A DNA stretch of 33,107 nucleotides from an uncultured Rhodospirillales bacterium (GTDB lineage Bacteria; Pseudomonadota; Alphaproteobacteria; Acetobacterales; Acetobacteraceae): positions 1 through 33,107 of the forward strand of contig CAITOL010000032.1 of the NCBI GenBank assembly GCA_903893975.1. Direction: 5' to 3'. A program made the position numbers and the translations under genes. The notes below the pieces were generated by a model. It ran no database searches, was not told the origin of the DNA, and saw nothing but the letters and a program-made list of their open reading frames with translations. Positions within the stretch are counted from its first letter, which is position 1. Every line of letters starts with the position of its first letter. This document shows positions 22,562 to 32,852 of this stretch, in pieces.

Positions 22562-24184
22562 TCAGCGCGCAGCGTCGAGGGCGAACTGGGCCACTCGTTC
22601 GCCGGTCATGATGGCGGCGGCATTGGTGTTGGCGGCCGGCATGGTTGGAAAGATCGAGGCATCCGCGATCCGAATGCCGTCCAAGCCGTGCACCCGCAAT
22701 TGCGTATCAACCACGCTTTCGCCGGCGCGGCCCATGCGGCAGGTGGCGATCGGATGATAGACCGTGAGCCCGGTGCCCTTGGCGTAGGCCAACAATTCCT
22801 CGTCGCTGTCGATGTTCACGCCGGGGAACGTCTCGGAAACGATGTAGGGCGCGAAGGCCGGCTGGGCGGCAAGCCGGCGTGCCAGCCGCAACCCGGCGAC
22901 GGAAACCGCCTGGTCGTAGCTGTCGGACAGAAAATTGGTAAGGATATTCGGCTTGTCCCACGGCGAAGTGCCGGTGATATGCACCCGTCCGGTTGAACGC
23001 GGGTAAATCGCCCAATTAAGCAGCGAAATGCCCGAGACCTTATCGACGGGATAGCCAAGCTGGCCGCGTTTGGAAAAATCATTGCTGATCGCGTTAAGCT
23101 GCACCTTCAGGTCGGCACGATCGACCAGGTCGCTGGATCGCGTGGTCAGCTGACTGTTCATGGTGGACGTCCGCAGCCAGCCGCGGCGGAACAGCATGAA
23201 TTGCAACCCGGCGCGCATTTTCGGGATCAGCCCATGGGTGATGTCGTTCACCGTCAAGGCGCCTTTGGTGCGATAGGTCACCGCGCTGCGCAGGTGGTCG
23301 CGCATATTCTCGCCGACATGTGGCATATCGTGCCGCACATCGATCCCCAGCGCCTGCAGAACCTCCGGCCGGCCGACGCCAGAGCGTTCCAGCAAGGCGG
23401 GCGAATGGTAGGCGCCGGCGCAAACAATAACCTCCCGCGCCGCGCGCGCGACCTGGCGGTCCCCGTCGCGGCTGACATGCTCCACGCCAACCACCCGTCG
23501 GCCCTCGAAGATCAGCCGGTCCGCGCCGCGCCCGGTCATCACGTGCAGATTGGCGCGCCGCATGGCCGGCTTCAAATAGCCTTCATAGGTTGAAACGCGC
23601 CAACCGTTGCGGGTGTTGGTTTGCAGGTAGGTGTAGCCCTCGATATTGCCGTTGTTATAGTCGGCGGCAGCGGGAATGCCGAGTTGCCGGGCGCTTGCCA
23701 GGAAGGCGTCACCGAGCGCGTCGGGCTTGTTTTTCGTGATGGTGATCGGCCCATCCTGACCGCGATCCGCGGCATCGCCGGCCTTGTAGGTTTCGATCCG
23801 CTTAAAAAACGGCTGCACGTCGCGCCAGCCCCAGCCTTCGTTGCCAAGCTGGCGCCAGTGATCATATTCGCTGGCGTCCCCGATCGCCCAGATCATGCCG
23901 TTGATCGCGCTCGATCCGCCCAGCCCGAGACCGCGCGGGGAATAGACCATATGCCCGCCGAGCGATTTTTCCGGGCCGCTGACAAATCGCCAGCTCCATT
24001 TCGGGTTCGACACCAGTTTGACGACCGCCAGCGGCAGCCGGTGGTTGATGCTGTCGGTCTTTTCCCCCGGCTCTAGCAGCAACACCGTGTGCTTGCCGTT
24101 TTCCGACAACCGCGCCGCCGCGGCCGCGCCCGCCGATCCGGCGCCGACGACAATGAAGTCCCAAGTTTGCATGTCCGTCACCAT
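22562..24184 (-). CDS. GMC-family FAD oxidoreductase (alcohol/choline dehydrogenase-like)
   Basis: FAD-dependent oxidation of an alcohol to an aldehyde or ketone. The 540-residue protein starts with the dinucleotide-binding motif VVGAGSAGAAAAARLSE (GAGSAG at 14-19), contains the GMC signature blocks PRGLGLGGSSAINGMIW and GAYHSPALLERSGVG, and ends with the catalytic-histidine segment HPIATCRMG (His477) and PAANTNAAAIMTGERVA. Length is normal for bacterial GMC enzymes. A start at residue 5 (24172) is also possible. It overlaps the end of the upstream mandelate-racemase-type gene by 7 bases and is followed by the sulfatase after about 25 bases, so the three are probably co-transcribed. The substrate cannot be read from sequence. 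Confidence 0.92.
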   Translation of the reverse strand: MVTDMQTWDFIVVGAGSAGAAAAARLSENGKHTVLLLEPGEKTDSINHRLPLAVVKLVSNPKWSWRFVSGPEKSLGGHMVYSPRGLGLGGSSAINGMIWAIGDASEYDHWRQLGNEGWGWRDVQPFFKRIETYKAGDAADRGQDGPITITKNKPDALGDAFLASARQLGIPAAADYNNGNIEGYTYLQTNTRNGWRVSTYEGYLKPAMRRANLHVMTGRGADRLIFEGRRVVGVEHVSRDGDRQVARAAREVIVCAGAYHSPALLERSGVGRPEVLQALGIDVRHDMPHVGENMRDHLRSAVTYRTKGALTVNDITHGLIPKMRAGLQFMLFRRGWLRTSTMNSQLTTRSSDLVDRADLKVQLNAISNDFSKRGQLGYPVDKVSGISLLNWAIYPRSTGRVHITGTSPWDKPNILTNFLSDSYDQAVSVAGLRLARRLAAQPAFAPYIVSETFPGVNIDSDEELLAYAKGTGLTVYHPIATCRMGRAGESVVDTQLRVHGLDGIRIADASIFPTMPAANTNAAAIMTGERVAQFALDAAR

Positions 24185-25296
24185 TCCGGGGTTGCAACGC
24201 GATAGCGTAGGAGTTGCTGCATGTCGATCTCCACACCCAGGCCGGGCGTGTCACCAAGGTCGAGCCTGCCGTCGCGGATTTCATGCTGCACGAAATCGTC
24301 GCGCGCCGGGTTGTATTCGATGCCGTATTCCAGCGCGCCGTCCGGCGAATTGCTGGCGGCCAGCAGATGCGCCGAGGCGAGCAGGCCGGGCGCGCCGGAG
24401 AAAATATGCGGACAAAAGCGCAAGCCCGCGGCGATGATGCGCTCGGCCATCGGCAGCGCACCGGAAAACCCGCCCCATTTGCACATGTCCGGCTGGATCA
24501 CGCCATAGGCGCCGGAGCCGATCGCGGCCTCAAACATTTCCGCCGTCAGCATGTTCTCGCCGCCGGCAATCCTGGTCGGCGCGGCCCGCGCCAACGCGCG
24601 CCAGGCGTCCAGCGGCGCATCAACCGGAATGGCTTCCTCCAGAAACGCCAGCCGCACATCGGTAAACCGCTTGGACCATTCCGCCGCCCGGTCGACCGGC
24701 CATGACTGGTTGGCATCGGCCATCAACGCCATATCGTCGCCGATCTGTTTGCGCGCCGCCACATAAGCCCCGATATGATCGGCGACATCGCCCCAGACGC
24801 GTAGCTTGAAGCCGCGGAAGCCACGCTGCATGGCTTTCTCGATCAGCGGGCCGGCGCCATGCGAACGTCCGAGGCTGGCATAGGTGTTGACGCTGCCGCT
24901 GTTGCCGCCAAGCAGCTTCCAGATCGGCTGCCGCGCGCGCTTGCCGACGATATCCCACAGCGCAATGTCGATGCCGGCGATCGCGGCCGCGAACGGCCCG
25001 GTTTCGCCGCTTTGCAGCCGCAGCACATTGGCGGTCGCCTGCATCGCATCCCATGCCGCGCGCGGCCCGGTGAAGGTCCGCGATTTCAGCAACGGTTCCA
25101 GCACGCGCTTGACCAGCACGGCGCGATGGAAGGCGCCGAACCGGGGGAAATTGCACCACACCTCGCCCCAGCCTTCCTCACCGGTCTGCGACGTGACGCG
25201 GATCAGCAGGGCGATCGTGCTGTCCACCATGCCCATCGGGGTTTTAACCGGCGCCCGCAGCGGGATACGAAGGATATATGGCTCGATCGCATCCAC
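24178..25296 (-). CDS. Mandelate racemase / muconate lactonizing enzyme family protein
   Basis: Enolase-superfamily enzyme, likely a dehydratase or racemase acting on a sugar acid or similar carboxylate, abstracting the alpha proton. From GTG at 25296 the protein has 372 residues, normal for the family. The barrel shows a KxR base motif (K164-L-R166), metal ligands D194 (MADANQSW), E220 (FLEEAIP) and E247 (IAGGENM), and the D270/H297 dyad (QPDMCKWGG, CPHIFSG). The GTG has GGAA 6 bases upstream. A much better ribosome site (GGAGGGAG) precedes an ATG at 25328, but that ATG is in another frame, so the start is uncertain and a one-base error or frameshift is possible. It is first of the probable operon with the GMC and sulfatase genes, divergent from the Crp/Fnr gene. 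Confidence 0.87.
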   Translation of the reverse strand: MDAIEPYILRIPLRAPVKTPMGMVDSTIALLIRVTSQTGEEGWGEVWCNFPRFGAFHRAVLVKRVLEPLLKSRTFTGPRAAWDAMQATANVLRLQSGETGPFAAAIAGIDIALWDIVGKRARQPIWKLLGGNSGSVNTYASLGRSHGAGPLIEKAMQRGFRGFKLRVWGDVADHIGAYVAARKQIGDDMALMADANQSWPVDRAAEWSKRFTDVRLAFLEEAIPVDAPLDAWRALARAAPTRIAGGENMLTAEMFEAAIGSGAYGVIQPDMCKWGGFSGALPMAERIIAAGLRFCPHIFSGAPGLLASAHLLAASNSPDGALEYGIEYNPARDDFVQHEIRDGRLDLGDTPGLGVEIDMQQLLRYRVATPEW

Positions 25297-25373
25297 CGCG
25301 ATTTCCGAGACAAATCTATTTGCGCCATTTTCAAGCTCCCTCCGGTCACACCGCGACCGCGACGCAGTTAGGG

Positions 25374-25393
25374 CAAACCGCCGCGCGTGTTTG
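25374..25393. promoter_or_regulatory. Inverted repeat CAAAC-N10-GTTTG between divergent genes
   Basis: CAAAC (25374-25378) and GTTTG (25389-25393) form a perfect 5+5 dyad with a 10-base centre, extended loosely by outer GG/CC pairs. It lies in the gap of about 146 bases between the enolase-superfamily gene and the Crp/Fnr gene, a natural place for an operator acting on both. It does not match the usual CRP (TGTGA-N6-TCACA) or FNR (TTGAT-N4-ATCAA) half sites. TTGACA at 25402-25407 could serve as a -35 hexamer, but I found no good -10. Confidence 0.35.
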
Positions 25394-25442
25394 TACCGAA
25401 GTTGACAATCGAACCACGGCGATCGCACGGTTGCCGCGTGTA

Positions 25443-26225
25443 ATGGCCGGACCGCACGGCCCTCGAAAATCTTTGCCGGAAAGGACCAGGCCGGTGTCGC
25501 GGTCGACAGATATCGGGCTTGCATGGCCAACCGCCAAACTTGCCGCGCTGTTGCGCGCCGGGGTGTGGCCCAATCTGTCCGACAACGCGGTTGCCGCACT
25601 CCGGTCCGTCGGGCGTTTCGTCGATATCCCGGAAGGCCGCCAGATTGCGTCCCGCGCCGAACCCATCGCGCGTTTGTATCTGGTGCTGACCGGAGCGGTG
25701 CGGCTGTGCATGCGCACATCCGACGACCGCGAATTCGTGGCCGCGCTGACCCAGCCAGGGAATCTCTGCTTTCTGGTCGCTTGTCTGGACGGCCGGTTAA
25801 GCCAGTACGACGCCTATGCCCAGATCCCGACGACGGCGCTGGCAGTCGGGGCGGGTGAACTGCGCGCGCTGATGCAGCAAAACGCCGAACTCCAGAACGC
25901 GGTGCTGATGTTGCTCTGCCGGCGGCTGCGGCAGTCCTTCAATGGGCTGGAGCAATTCGCGATGTGGACGCCACGCGCCCGACTGGCGGCCTGCCTGCTT
26001 GGTCTCGCCCGGTCAGGCGGACAATCGCAGGGCGAGGACAGCGAGATCACGTCGCATTTGCAGCAAGCCTCACTGGCGGCGATGATCGGCGTTTCCCGGC
26101 CGCGCACCAACAAGATGCTGAAGGCGCTGGAAGAGGCGGGGGTGCTGCGGCTGGGCTACGGGCGCATCACCATCCGCGATCCCGGCCGCTTGCGCGACGA
26201 ATTGGGGCTGCATCACCCAAGCTGA
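25443..26225 (+). CDS. Crp/Fnr-family transcriptional regulator
   Basis: The 260-residue protein has a cyclic-nucleotide-binding-type beta barrel at about 45-150 (FVDIPEGRQIASRAEPIARLYLVL, in two adjoining blocks), a dimerisation helix at about 145-175, and a Crp-type winged helix at about 178-240 with the recognition region ASLAAMIGVSRPRTNKMLKALEEAGVL. The cNMP-binding RxS signature is not evident, and there is no N-terminal cysteine cluster for an FNR-type iron-sulfur centre, so the effector is unknown. I chose the ATG at 25443; its ribosome site is weak and the true start may differ. It is divergent from the enolase/GMC/sulfatase genes and probably controls them. Its end overlaps that of the convergent E1-beta gene by 13 bases. 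Confidence 0.88.
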   Translation: MAGPHGPRKSLPERTRPVSRSTDIGLAWPTAKLAALLRAGVWPNLSDNAVAALRSVGRFVDIPEGRQIASRAEPIARLYLVLTGAVRLCMRTSDDREFVAALTQPGNLCFLVACLDGRLSQYDAYAQIPTTALAVGAGELRALMQQNAELQNAVLMLLCRRLRQSFNGLEQFAMWTPRARLAACLLGLARSGGQSQGEDSEITSHLQQASLAAMIGVSRPRTNKMLKALEEAGVLRLGYGRITIRDPGRLRDELGLHHPS

Positions 26226-28256: not shown

Positions 28257-29069
28257 ATGCCAATCGTGACCGCGCCCACGGTAACCAAATTGGGCGCCGA
28301 TGCGCGCGGCGCCGTGCTGGTCACCGGCTCACATGGCGGCGTTTATCCGGGCGGGCTGGCGGCGAAGGCGCAGGTTCGGGCGGTGATTTTTCACGATGCC
28401 GGGCTGGGCCGCGGCGATGCTGGCATCGGCGCACTAACCTTGCTGGCGAAGCTCGGCATTGCCGCCGCCGCCGTGTCGCACATGTCCGCGCGCGTGGGCG
28501 ATACCGAGGATATGCTGGCCCGTGGCGTCATCAGCCGCTTCAACGCGGCCGCCGGGGATGCCGGGGTCACCCGCGCGATGCCCTGCGCGGTCGCCGCCGA
28601 CATGCTGCAAGCTGCGCCCTGGCGCATCGTGCCGCCGCCGATCGCCGATGAAGCACGTTCGGTCACCCGCCCGGACGGCGCGTTGCGCAATCTGGTGCTG
28701 ATCGACTCGGCAGCCTTGGTGGACCCGGTGGCCGATCGCGGCGCGGTGATCGTCACCGGATCGCATGGCGGGCTGGTTGGCGGCGTGCCGGCCATGGCGC
28801 TGCGCGCCGACGGCTACGCCGCCGCGTTCAACGATGCCGGCATCGGTATCGATCAGGCCGGCATTGGCCGCCTGGCAGCCTTGGACACGCGCGGCATCGC
28901 CGCCATCACCGTTGCCGCCCATTCCGCCCGCATCGGCGCGGCGCAATCAACGCTGGATGACGGCATCGTCTCCGCCGTCAACGCCACCGCCGCCGCATGG
29001 GGCGCGCAAACCGGCGCCCGCGCCGCGGATCTGCTGCTTGCCTGGACCCGCCGCCGCGACCAGAGTTAA
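28257..29069 (+). CDS. Protein of unknown function made of two tandem GSHGG domains
   Basis: I do not recognise the family. The 270 residues consist of two copies of one domain, about 17-121 and 161-264, joined by a linker. Both begin RGAVLVTGSHGG or RGAVIVTGSHGG (GSHGG at 24-28 and 168-172) and share, in order, DAGLG/DAGIG (47 and 193), AGIG, LGIAA/RGIAA, a SARVG/SARIG motif (77 and 223), a GVIS/GIVS element and an N-A-A pair. Conserved Ser-His, Asp and Arg in both halves could form paired active or binding sites. There is no signal peptide or membrane segment, so it is likely cytosolic. The ATG at 28257 has a GAGGGAGAG ribosome site. It is divergent from the E1 genes and 20 bases upstream of the DOPA-dioxygenase-family gene. 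Confidence 0.85.
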   Translation: MPIVTAPTVTKLGADARGAVLVTGSHGGVYPGGLAAKAQVRAVIFHDAGLGRGDAGIGALTLLAKLGIAAAAVSHMSARVGDTEDMLARGVISRFNAAAGDAGVTRAMPCAVAADMLQAAPWRIVPPPIADEARSVTRPDGALRNLVLIDSAALVDPVADRGAVIVTGSHGGLVGGVPAMALRADGYAAAFNDAGIGIDQAGIGRLAALDTRGIAAITVAAHSARIGAAQSTLDDGIVSAVNATAAAWGAQTGARAADLLLAWTRRRDQS

Positions 29070-29089: not shown

Positions 29090-29461
29090 ATGCGCGATAC
29101 CGCCGCCGAAACCACCCCGATCTACGCCTGGCACGCCCATGTCTACTACACGCCGGAGACCAAACCCGTGGCGCTCAGGCTGCGGGAATGGGTCGGCGCC
29201 CGCTTTCCCGCCGCCGTGCTTGGACGCTGGCACGACGCAAAGGTGGGGCCGCATCCGCAATCCATGTATCAGATCGCCTTCCCCGCCGAGCTATTCCCCA
29301 CTCTGGCGCCGTTTCTGGCGCTCAACCGCATGGGGCTGACGGTGCTGCTGCACCCTGAAAGCGGTCGGCCGAAGGATGATCACCTGCTGCACGCCATGTG
29401 GATGGGCGCGGTGCTGCCGCTGGATGACAGCATGTTGCCGGAGGTCGAGGCACGGCATTAG
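29090..29461 (+). CDS. DOPA 4,5-dioxygenase family protein
   Basis: Members of this small family cleave catechol-type rings (DOPA 4,5-extradiol dioxygenase in fungi and plants); bacterial members are mostly uncharacterised. The 123-residue protein has the full family pattern: WHAHVYYTP (His15, His17), LGRWHDAKVGPHPQSMYQI (His48, His55), and LLHPESGRPKDDHLLHAMWMG (split here as LLHPESGRPK and DDHLLHAMWMG; His88, His98, His101). The start at 29090 has an excellent AGGAGG 6 bases upstream. It is probably co-transcribed with the GSHGG gene and is followed at once by a bidirectional terminator. The substrate is unknown. Confidence 0.9.
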   Translation: MRDTAAETTPIYAWHAHVYYTPETKPVALRLREWVGARFPAAVLGRWHDAKVGPHPQSMYQIAFPAELFPTLAPFLALNRMGLTVLLHPESGRPKDDHLLHAMWMGAVLPLDDSMLPEVEARH

Positions 29462-29525: not shown

Positions 29526-29948
29526 TTAGTCCTCGCCTTCCTCGGCGGCCACTTCCGGGCGTGGGCCGCTATCGAGGCCCTTGGCGCCAACGTCGCGCTC
29601 AACGAGCTCGATAACCGCCATGTCGGCCGCATCGCCGTAGCGCATGCCGGCCTTCAGCACGCGGGTGTAGCCACCCTGACGGTCCTTGTAGCGTTCCGCG
29701 ATGACCGTGAACAACTTGGTGACAATCACGTCGTCACGCAGTTGCGCGTAAGCCTGACGGCGGGCGTGCAGGCCACCGCGCTTGCCCAGGGTGATCAACT
29801 TCTCCGCAACCGGACGCAGTTCCTTCGCCTTCGGCAGCGTGGTGGTGATCTGCTCGTGCTTGATCAACGCATGCGCCAGGTTGCGGAACATGGCGAAGCG
29901 GTGGCTGGTGGTAACGCCGAGCTTCCGCCCGGAAATGCCATGACGCAT
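29526..29948 (-). CDS. rplQ: 50S ribosomal protein L17
   Basis: Component of the large ribosomal subunit near the exit tunnel. The 140-residue protein begins [20 protein letters not shown] and contains [27 protein letters not shown] (in two adjoining blocks), which are diagnostic. An acidic tail (EVAAEEGED) extends the common core of about 120 residues. An AGGAG lies 7 bases before the ATG. It is last in the alpha operon, 40 bases after rpoA, and is followed by the bidirectional terminator. Confidence 0.98.
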
Positions 29949-29988
29949 GGTCTAACTCCTCACACGCTCGAAGCGTGCTGCAATAAAT

Positions 29989-31020
29989 TTAGAACGGCTC
30001 TTCGAGACGTTTGGCGAGATCTTCGATGTTTTCCGGCGGCCAGCCAGAGACTGCCATGCCGAGCGAAAGCGCCATCGAAGCCAGCACTTCCTTGATCTCG
30101 TTCAGCGACTTGCGGCCGAAGTTCGGCGTGCGCAGCATTTCCTGTTCGGATTTCTGCACCAGATCGCCGATATAAACGATGTTGTCGTTCTTCAGGCAGT
30201 TCGCGCTGCGGACCGACAGTTCCAACTCATCAACCTTGCGCAGCAGGTTGCGGTTGAACGGCAGATCGTCTTCCGGCTCTTCCGAACGGGCGGCCTGCGG
30301 CTCATCGAAGTTGATGAACAGCTGCAACTGGTCCTGCAAAATGCGCGCAGCCAAGGCCACCGCATCCTCAGGTGCAACCGCGCCATTGGTTTCGACGTTC
30401 AACACCAGCTTGTCATAGTCGGTGATCTGGCCGAGACGGGTCGGCTCCACCTTGTAGGACACGCGGCGCACCGGCGAGTAGATCGAGTCGATCGGGATCA
30501 ACCCAATCGGCGCATCTTCCGGACGGTTGGCGCTGGCGGGCTGATAGCCCTTGCCCAGCTGCACCGTGAATTCCATGCCCAGCTTCACGCCATCATCAAG
30601 CGTGCACAGCACCAAGTCGGGGTTCATCACCTCGATATCGTGGCCGGTGGTGATCTGGCCAGCGCGGACTTCGCCGGGGCCAACCGCGTTCAGCACCATG
30701 CGCTTCGGGCCTTCGCCATGCATCCGCAGCGCAAGCTGCTTGATGTTCAGGACGATATCCGTCACGTCTTCCCGCACGCCAGGAATGCTGCTGAATTCAT
30801 GCAGCACACCGTCGATTTGCACCGCCGTCACCGCCGCACCTTGCAGCGACGACAGCAACACGCGGCGAATGGCGTTACCAAGAGTGATACCGAAACCGCG
30901 CTCCAGCGGCTCGGCGACAACCGTCGCGACGCAAGACGGATCAGACCCGGGCTCAACACCCAGCTTTTCCGGCTTGATCAGCGATTGCCAGTTTTTTTGC
31001 AGAACAGCGCTCAGTCTCAT
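29989..31020 (-). CDS. rpoA: RNA polymerase alpha subunit
   Basis: Scaffold subunit of RNA polymerase and contact point for UP elements and activators. The 343 residues comprise the N-terminal assembly domain (about 1-235, with [20 protein letters not shown]) and the C-terminal domain (about 255-340). [18 protein letters not shown] keeps the Arg and Asn that in E. coli (R265, N268) contact DNA, and [13 protein letters not shown] follows. Length is normal. The SD AAGGTG precedes the ATG. It lies between rpsK and rplQ. Confidence 0.98.
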
Positions 31021-31093
31021 GGATATGTCACCTTACGGCCAGATGCCGCTTGAAAGGGACAAAGGCGGCCGGACGGCCACCCGGAATGTCTCA

Positions 31094-31122
31094 CGCCTTG
31101 GCGCCATGCAGGCGCCAAGGCG
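31094..31122 (-). other. Perfect 12-pair stem-loop in the rpsK-rpoA gap
   Basis: CGCCTTGGCGCC and GGCGCCAAGGCG flank a 5-base loop, starting 6 bases after the rpsK stop. No T run follows on either strand, so it is unlikely to terminate transcription. A role in mRNA processing or protection between rpsK and rpoA is possible. The rest of the 108-base gap shows nothing else. Confidence 0.7.
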
Positions 31123-31128
31123 ATTGGG

Positions 31129-31521
31129 TCACACGCGGCGACGCTTGCGCGGGCGGCAGCCATTATGCGGGACAGGCGTCATGTCGCGGATCGCGGTGAT
31201 CGAGAAGCCAACCGCCTGCAAGGCGCGCAACGCGCTCTCGCGGCCCGAACCGGGACCGGCGACTTCGATTTCCAGCGTTTCCATGCCGTGCTCGCGCGCC
31301 TTGCGGCCCGCATCTTCAGCAGCCACCTGTGCGGCGTACGGGGTCGACTTACGGCTACCCTTGAACCCCGACATCCCCGCCGACGACCAGGCAATGGTAT
31401 TGCCCTGCGCATCGGTGATGGTGATCATCGTGTTGTTAAAGGTCGCGGCCACATGGGCCACGCCGGAAGTGATGTTTTTGCGCTCTTTGCGACGGGGGCG
31501 CGAGGCAGCGGGCTTCGCCAT
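31129..31521 (-). CDS. rpsK: 30S ribosomal protein S11
   Basis: Part of the small-subunit platform, near the mRNA exit and Shine-Dalgarno helix. The 130-residue protein has [21 protein letters not shown], split over residues 20-40, then [17 protein letters not shown] and the C-terminal [18 protein letters not shown], all diagnostic of S11. An AGGA lies 9 bases before the ATG. It is second in the alpha operon, with 125 bases to rpsM upstream. Confidence 0.98.
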
Positions 31522-31555
31522 ATTCTATCGTCCTATCCAACAATGTGCGACCGGC

Positions 31556-31576
31556 TTCCCCCAGAAGGTGGGGGAA
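31556..31576 (-). other. Stem-loop in the rpsM-rpsK gap
   Basis: TTCCCCC and GGGGGAA form a 7-pair stem around a 7-base loop, about 35 bases upstream of the rpsK start. No T run follows. The rest of this 125-base gap holds only the rpsK ribosome site. Confidence 0.6.
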
Positions 31577-31646
31577 AGCGGGCCGCGAGGTGTTCAGCGC
31601 TTCAGATGTGCGCGAGTCGAGCAATCGAACAAACGTCGGAGGACGC

Positions 31647-32024
31647 TTACTTCGTAACCTTTTTCTTGCCGGCGATCGCCACGGCCTTGCCCTTCCGGGT
31701 GCGGGCGTTGGTGTGCGTGCGCTGACCGCGGACCGGCAGGCCACGGCGATGACGCAGACCGCGATAGCAGCCGAGGTCCATCAACCGCTTGATGTTCATC
31801 GCGGTTTCACGGCGAAGATCGCCCTCGACGCGATATTCACGATCCACGAGCTCGCGGATGCGCAGCACCTCGTCATCGCTGAGCTGGTTGACGCGACGAT
31901 CTTCCGGGATGCCAAGCTTGGCGCAGATTGCATCGGCCTTGGTCGGGCCGATCCCGTAGATGTAGCGAAGGCTGATCTTTACCCGCTTGTTGGTCGGGAT
32001 ATTCACACCGGCAATACGCGCCAC
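31647..32024 (-). CDS. rpsM: 30S ribosomal protein S13
   Basis: Head protein of the small subunit that contacts the P-site tRNA and bridges to the large subunit. The 125-residue protein begins [26 protein letters not shown], read here in two blocks, and has the basic tail [20 protein letters not shown], which is typical. The start is GTG, with AGGAG 9 bases upstream, rather than ATG. It is the first gene of the alpha operon behind its own promoter, with a structured leader of about 110 bases. Confidence 0.98.
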
Positions 32025-32056
32025 GCTTTGTCACTCCTGAACGCCCGCCATGGCAC

Positions 32057-32075
32057 TGATATCATTGTGATATCA
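32057..32075 (-). promoter_or_regulatory. Tandem TGATATCA palindromes in the rpsM leader
   Basis: Two identical 8-base palindromes, TGATATCA at 32057-32064 and 32068-32075, lie 11 bases apart, one helical turn. As DNA they could be a two-site operator. As RNA the copies can pair with each other to make an 8-pair hairpin with a CAA loop, 33 bases upstream of the rpsM GTG. Confidence 0.5.
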
Positions 32076-32105
32076 ACCCACATGACGGGTGGAAAAATCG
32101 ACGAA

Positions 32106-32130
32106 CGGCACCCGCTTCGCGCAGGTGCCG
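32106..32130 (-). other. GC-rich stem-loop at the start of the rpsM leader
   Basis: CGGCACC (32106-32112) and GGTGCCG (32124-32130) pair, and CGC/GCG inside extends the stem with a 2-base bulge. It lies just downstream of the predicted transcription start, so the rpsM mRNA would begin with this hairpin. Confidence 0.6.
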
Positions 32131-32143
32131 CCCTGGGGCGCGC

Positions 32144-32171
32144 ACTATAGCGACGACGCCCCGAGAGTCAA
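32144..32171 (-). promoter_or_regulatory. Sigma-70-type promoter of the alpha operon
   Basis: On the minus strand TTGACT (32171-32166) and TATAGT (32149-32144) are separated by 16 bases, a close match to the housekeeping consensus. The start would be near 32137, giving a leader of about 113 bases before the rpsM GTG. It lies in the adk-rpsM gap and would let rpsM-rpsK-rpoA-rplQ be transcribed apart from the upstream ribosomal genes. Confidence 0.75.
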
Positions 32172-32173
32172 CG

Positions 32174-32192
32174 CGCAGAGATCAACTCTGCG
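32174..32192 (-). terminator. Weak stem-loop just after adk
   Basis: CGCAGAG and CTCTGCG form a 7-pair stem with a 5-base loop, 6 bases after the adk stop and directly before the -35 of the rpsM promoter. There is no T run, so at most it is a weak or factor-dependent terminator or a 3'-end protector of the secY-adk mRNA. Confidence 0.35.
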
Positions 32193-32198
32193 TGATGA

Positions 32199-32852
32199 TT
32201 AGCGCAACCCATCCAATAGCGTGATGAGTTCCTGGGTCACCGCATCAATGTCGGCCATGCCGTCCACCTGATGCAGCTTTCCTGAAGCCTTGTAGTGCGG
32301 CAAAATCGGCGCCGTCTGGGCGTGATACGCCTCCAGCCGCGCGGCCACAGTCTCCCGCTTGTCGTCCGCGCGACGGACGAATTCGTTGCCGCCACACCGG
32401 TCACACACTCCGGCACGGGCCGGCTTCTGGAACACGTCGTGATAGCCTTCACCGCACTTGCCGCAGGTGTAGCGACCAGCGATACGCTCGACCAACGCCC
32501 CGTCATCAACGACCAGCTCGATCACCGCATCTAGCTGCTTGCCGAGTCCAGCCAACATCGTATCGAGCGCCACAGCCTGCGGCACCGTCCGCGGAAACCC
32601 ATCAAGGATGAAACCCTGGGCGCAATCCGGCCGGGTGATACGCCCCGCCAGCATACGGATCAAGATATCATCGGATACCAGCGCACCGGCCGCCATCACG
32701 GCCTTGGCCTGCAAGCCAACCTCACTGCCGGCGGCAACTTCTGCCCGCAACATATCACCGGTGGAAATCTGCACCGTGCCATAGCGGTCCTGGAGCCGCT
32801 TAGCTTGGGTGCCCTTTCCCGCGCCAGGCGGTCCAAGCAGGATCAGATTCAT
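32199..32852 (-). CDS. adk: Adenylate kinase, zinc-binding lid form
   Basis: Converts ATP and AMP to two ADP in the cytoplasm. The 217-residue protein has the P-loop GPPGAGKGT (8-16), the AMP-binding [19 protein letters not shown], and a long lid with four cysteines, C130-x2-C133 and C150-x2-C153, arranged to bind zinc. Enteric Adk lacks these. The start overlaps the secY stop (ATGA). adk between secY and rpsM is common in alphaproteobacteria. Confidence 0.98.

Follow-up and report, generated by a model that had tools for sequence, protein, structure and literature searches.

The window, which is the whole 33,107-nucleotide stretch of DNA analysed here, encodes a conserved uncharacterised protein built of two tandem domains, which is probably an enzyme of small-molecule catabolism. 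The linkage of its family to a gene set around an acetolactate-synthase-like ThDP enzyme is strong, and we put the probability that the protein acts in the catabolic pathway to which these ThDP enzymes belong at about 0.8. The gene set that awaits a name comprises E1 alpha, E1 beta, the AHAS-like enzyme and the two-domain protein, joined in some species by TRAP transporter and IclR genes. A substrate found for this set would name several enzymes at once. The family is present in 48 of 385 class-level genomes (the window genome counted; a few matches are partial or weak) and on haloarchaeal and Rhodococcus plasmids, yet Pfam, NCBIfam and PDB give it no confident cover.

The duplicated protein and its family

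The coding sequence at positions 28257 to 29069 (plus strand, stop codon included) starts with ATG, contains no internal stops and translates into 270 amino acids. Comparison of residues 1-128 with residues 139-270 by BLASTP gave 49 identities over 105 positions (47%, E 9e-19), the two aligned halves being residues 17-119 (28305-28613, plus strand) and residues 161-262 (28737-29042, plus strand). The local alignment score between the halves was 187, while 1000 shuffles reached a maximum of 72 (mean 42.1, sd 7.7). The tandem duplication proposed in the preliminary description of this DNA is thus confirmed, far beyond chance. The motifs GSHGG, DAG(L/I)G, AGIG, SAR(V/I)G and G(V/I)(I/V)S follow one another in the same order in both halves, as had been described. 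In a tree of halves, the smallest clade containing all 40 of the 40 C-terminal halves also includes 3 of the 40 N-terminal halves; the two copies do not separate cleanly.

Conservation was counted over an alignment of 38 family members (alignment A1). In the first half, Ser25 and His26 of the GSHGG motif (28329-28334) are kept in 37 and 35 members, Asp47 (28395-28397) in 36 and Arg79 (28491-28493) in 33. In the second half, Ser169 and His170 (28761-28766) are kept in 35 and 37 members, Asp193 (28833-28835) in all 38 and Arg225 (28929-28931) in 36, all of these codons lying on the plus strand. The conservation of Ser-His, Asp and Arg in both halves, previously noted from the window protein, therefore extends across the family at 33 to 38 of 38 members, and L012, L045 and L046, which are divergent, are among the exceptions. 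Asn96 and Asn242 (37 and 38 of 38) are kept as well as or better than these residues, and the glycines at 90, 236, 103 and 249 are invariant (38 of 38 each).

With the window genome counted, the family was found in 9 of 40 relatives and, with a half-domain model, in 5 of 299 genomes of the phylum, one of them a weak match. It also occurs on plasmids of Alphaproteobacteria, haloarchaea and Rhodococcus (13 records), where twelve of the homologues are annotated as hypothetical protein and one has no annotation. Single-domain homologues of about 130 residues, for which a search had been suggested, are present in L009, L010 and L223, together with a 132-aa frame in L088. No relative from viral contigs and no publication on the two-domain family appeared among the matches listed.

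No confident family model covered the whole protein in Pfam, NCBIfam, PHROGs or a PDB sequence search, in agreement with the earlier view that it was unrecognised. In Pfam, DUF1805 (PF08827, which we take to be YunC of Bacillus subtilis) scored 19.5 bits on the window protein, with a cut-off of 29.5, and spanned 53 of the 64 model positions; the other Pfam matches were weaker. The protein could be a distant tandem form of DUF1805 sharing the function of that domain, since 33 of the 38 A1 members match the model at E up to 0.1 (best 3e-8) and the divergent member L045, one among the members scanned singly, exceeds the cut-off at 32.5 bits. However, the score of the window protein itself stays below the cut-off, and the DUF1805 model searched against the window genome gave nothing over the cut-off and did not return the two-domain gene. 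In addition, 25 of the 38 members also match the Y-family polymerase model IMS. In members scanned singly, the IMS and DUF1805 matches lie on overlapping or nearby stretches, and several are just 24 to 50 residues long. DUF1805 was not adopted as the identity of the protein and was retained as an alternative that we consider unlikely.

The IMS model (PF00817) matched the window protein below its cut-off (17.8 versus 23.2 bits), covering 31 of its 148 positions. The family profile had its best PDB matches in a stretch of DNA polymerase IV. Kinship with Y-family polymerases was set aside, and the similarity was attributed, at least in part, to a short helix motif in common. Three family members (L046:7956-8738, L045:6953-7735 and L224:5511-6356) exceed the IMS gathering cut-off over about 30 residues, which is a possible source of wrong annotation.

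AlphaFold2 gave poor models both for the full protein with one other sequence (L040; pLDDT 39.4) and for one half with four halves (pLDDT 52.0), the latter showing alternating strands and helices. With the half model, Foldseek returned zero matches at E up to 0.001, and VIA returned only generic matches to varied Rossmann-like chains (Z at most 6.3). Given these pLDDT values and the generic nature of the structural matches, we claim no fold for the protein.

Gene neighbourhoods and genome-wide linkage

In the window, the gene for E1 alpha (PF00676; 27187-28179, minus strand) is divergent from the two-domain gene and lies 77 bp from its start, and the gene for E1 beta (PF02779 and PF02780; 26213-27190, minus strand) overlaps the end of E1 alpha. 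Neighbours were counted by tblastn with 25 queries within 6 kb of the family gene in 50 neighbourhoods (49 loci and the window), a non-random set composed mostly of best matches to the window protein, in which some neighbourhoods end at contig ends and three are from near-identical haloarchaea. E1 alpha and beta were found together in 27 of the 50, so that the E1 neighbourhood first noted in the window is a stronger feature of the family than had been described. In 14 of the 50 E1 alpha is divergent at a distance of at most 250 bp (measured between alignment ends), as in the window. An acetolactate-synthase-like ThDP enzyme was found in 24 neighbourhoods and adjoins the family gene on the same strand in 11. 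Either E1 or the ThDP enzyme was present in 31 neighbourhoods and neither in 19; among the latter, L041, L050, L054 and L070 matched none of the 25 queries. Other neighbours were SDR (15 of 50), the TRAP large permease (11 of 50) and IclR (7 of 50).

A dedicated E2 gene in the cluster, by which a 2-oxo acid dehydrogenase complex would be recognised, was not found beside these E1 genes: tblastn with the two E2 genes of the window genome as queries detected no full E2 in 66 neighbourhoods, the sole match being 79 residues long, in L086. Both E2 genes of the window genome lie on other contigs (C172 and C33), and this genome carries further E1 alpha-type genes.

The DOPA 4,5-dioxygenase-family gene (29090-29461, plus strand) begins 20 bp after the stop codon of the two-domain gene, its start at 29090 being preferred over the listed 28997. 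The association with this gene, on which the preliminary description had drawn, turned out to be local (3 of 50 neighbourhoods), and a creatininase-family gene was matched in 2 of 50; at these counts, neither was accepted as a functional partner. In two close relatives the creatininase-family gene follows the DOPA-dioxygenase gene (L040:7179-7970 and L049:4094-4939), and none was found beside the DOPA-dioxygenase gene in the window. Beyond E1 beta and on the same strand, the window encodes a GMC oxidoreductase and an MR_MLE (mandelate racemase/muconate lactonizing) protein (22562-25719, minus strand). MR_MLE was matched in the window only among the neighbourhoods, and L056, L085 and L086 gave further matches of the GMC type. 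On the other side, adjoining the DOPA-dioxygenase gene, the stretch 29526-32852 (minus strand) reads by eye as a housekeeping run, which we take to encode L17, rpoA, two small ribosomal proteins and adenylate kinase. The contexts of the family in Rhizobium, Rhodococcus and Aminobacter resemble acyl-CoA or aromatic catabolism. The gene contexts are those of small-molecule catabolism, and the role in small-molecule metabolism proposed earlier is well in line with them.

Since the neighbourhoods had been picked mostly as close relatives, linkage was also counted over the 385 genomes. The genomes in these counts are related, the ThDP and transporter queries were taken from family-bearing genomes, and each genome contributed only a few scored candidates. 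Within this scope, the ThDP enzyme (query from L060) was found in 36 of the 385 genomes, the window genome included, and a family gene is present in 34 of these 36 (Fisher p = 4.6e-35, with no correction for relatedness). Conversely, 14 of the 48 family genomes have no ThDP enzyme, and 2 of the 36 ThDP-enzyme genomes have no family gene. On plasmids, the ThDP enzyme gave no match at E up to 1e-100. The enzyme is not encoded in the window; its closest copy in the window genome, with 71% identity, lies on another contig. In the PDB, the L060 enzyme ranks closest to BbmA, followed by acetolactate synthases and glyoxylate carboligases, and it falls under the cut-off of every NCBIfam model shown. 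The ThDP enzyme is the strongest partner of the two-domain family.

One of the two genomes with the AHAS-like ThDP enzyme and without the family carries this enzyme in the locus L264:6967-14526. By eye, its surroundings include tripartite tricarboxylate transporter-like genes, hydantoinase-type subunits and an HpcH-type aldolase, and this locus provides a second lead to the substrate of the ThDP enzyme.

Clues to the substrate

Two contexts bear on the substrate. In the L062 cluster, the TRAP binding protein aligns over its full length with PDB 4p8b (471 bits), a structure presumably solved with 2-acetolactate as ligand. Proteins at least 55% identical to this binding protein occur in 8 of 53 neighbourhoods, and close 4p8b-like binding proteins occur in 16 of the 385 genomes, 12 with the family and 4 without. 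A review lists 2-acetolactate as one of the TRAP binding-protein ligands that a large survey identified (PMC5812351). A binding protein produced in E. coli may carry a ligand other than its natural substrate. At L266:7367-10481 and L273:4858-9861, a 4p8b-like protein is encoded beside E1 alpha and beta; the ThDP enzyme and the family are absent nearby, indicating that the transporter and E1 make up a separate unit.

In the second context, an RLP gene and a gene for a four-carbon acid sugar kinase accompany the family gene (L043, L044, L048, L057 and L224, and L274 by annotation); the family gene of L057 is of the single-domain form. A PGDH_C-type gene is present in L043, L048, L057 and L224, and also in L056, which has no RLP. 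In L224, the genes for the RLP, the kinase, the PGDH_C-type protein and the family protein follow in this order on one strand, an arrangement that resembles an operon, and an ABC sugar transporter and a lactonase-like gene were recognised nearby by eye. The RLP and the kinase are closest to OiaX and OiaK (models NF042437 and NF042436), with scores of 453.5 and 511.7 in L224 and of 536.5 and 447.8 in L043 against a cut-off of 700. OiaX/OiaK-type genes were not found in the window. In all three genomes of the class sample that have an OiaX-like gene, the examined locus contained no family gene; two of them have no family gene anywhere, and the third carries its copy on a different contig.

OiaX and OiaK reportedly belong to a branch of D-apiose catabolism described by Carter in 2018, a study cited in PMC6302742. 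The compound 3-oxo-isoapionate has the skeleton of acetolactate with a hydroxyl on each methyl. According to PMC6302742, the RLPs of apiose pathways act on 3-oxo-isoapionate-4-phosphate. Both contexts could therefore concern 2-hydroxy-3-oxo acids of the acetolactate type. Because acetolactate and 3-oxo-isoapionate have a common skeleton, we infer ketol acids as the substrate class of the two-domain protein, a tentative assignment of low probability, and the class could also be broader or different.

Proposed role and comparison with known systems

We propose that the two-domain protein may act as a stand-alone enzyme in a catabolic pathway with two ThDP enzymes, the acetolactate-synthase-like one and the two-subunit E1, which the TRAP transporter would feed in some species. 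Each half would fold into a small alpha/beta domain in which three successive strands are followed by Ser-His, Asp and Arg, respectively. Relatives with a single domain would form dimers, an arrangement that would be built into the fused protein. The likeliest substrates would be branched 2-hydroxy-3-oxo acids of the acetolactate type, or ketols that derive from such acids. The reaction may be an isomerisation or racemisation that needs no cofactor and supplies the ThDP enzyme or the kinase/RLP branch with the right isomer; this step is more speculative than the substrate class. Several observations count against the proposal: the 19 of 50 neighbourhoods with neither E1 nor the ThDP enzyme, the 14 family genomes that lack the ThDP enzyme and the 2 ThDP-enzyme genomes that lack the family, the 4 of 16 genomes that have a 4p8b-like binding protein and no family gene, the OiaX-like loci of the class sample, and the acyl-CoA or aromatic contexts in Rhizobium, Rhodococcus and Aminobacter. 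Taken as a whole (pathway enzyme, ketol-acid substrate, isomerisation or racemisation, and domain pairing), this is the best explanation that we can offer, and it is unlikely to be right in every part. More doubtful still is a reading in which the family founds a new enzyme superfamily. In that reading, a cofactor-free enzyme with two pseudo-symmetric Ser-His/Asp/Arg sites would isomerise or racemise branched ketol acids within an as yet undescribed ThDP-enzyme pathway for acetolactate-like compounds, in Alphaproteobacteria and also in haloarchaea, where the pathway would have an OiaX/OiaK-like branch.

The protein could serve the same pathways with other chemistry, as a Ser-His-Asp decarboxylase, hydrolase or lactonase. 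This is possible, although improbable in our judgement: it would have the same gene linkage and would make use of the Ser, His and Asp conserved in each half, and an acetolactate decarboxylase would supply acetoin to the E1 pair. However, Ser and His are adjacent in the sequence, unlike in usual catalytic triads, and OiaX-type loci already possess a decarboxylase of their own. The protein might instead be a non-catalytic subunit that assists or regulates the ThDP enzyme, much as IlvN serves IlvB. The co-occurrence in 34 of 36 ThDP-enzyme genomes and the same-strand adjacency in 11 of 50 neighbourhoods are what such a subunit would show, but the 14 of 48 family genomes that lack the ThDP enzyme, the RLP/kinase loci with no ThDP enzyme beside the family gene, and the preservation of charged polar motifs in both halves make this role quite improbable.

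The protein might also sense a ligand for the divergent E1 operon or regulate that operon, a role that would fit the position of the gene close to and divergent from E1 alpha (14 of 50 neighbourhoods). We consider this role very improbable, since no DNA-binding domain was matched in Pfam or NCBIfam, an IclR-type gene is already present within 6 kb in 7 of 50 neighbourhoods, and the family gene is elsewhere co-directional with metabolic genes.

Several known systems resemble parts of this picture. The C-terminal part of a half resembles the DUF1805 model over up to 53 positions, but the match does not reach the Ser-His and Asp motifs, and the two-domain protein has two tandem copies and scores below the cut-off. 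As in acetoin and pyruvate dehydrogenase clusters, PDH-type E1 alpha and beta genes adjoin the two-domain gene; in contrast to those clusters, the 66 neighbourhoods hold no full E2 beside these E1 genes, and the E1 proteins score under the PDH equivalog cut-offs. The family shares loci with OiaX-like and OiaK-like genes of the D-apiose branch, although these neighbours fall below the equivalog cut-offs and the two-domain protein resembles no library-known enzyme of the pathway. Finally, aspartate/glutamate racemases consist of two pseudo-symmetric alpha/beta halves that both contribute catalytic residues. The library searches gave no sequence match to them. We propose a similar arrangement for the two-domain protein, in which motifs of Ser-His, Asp and Arg would stand in place of the paired cysteines of these racemases.
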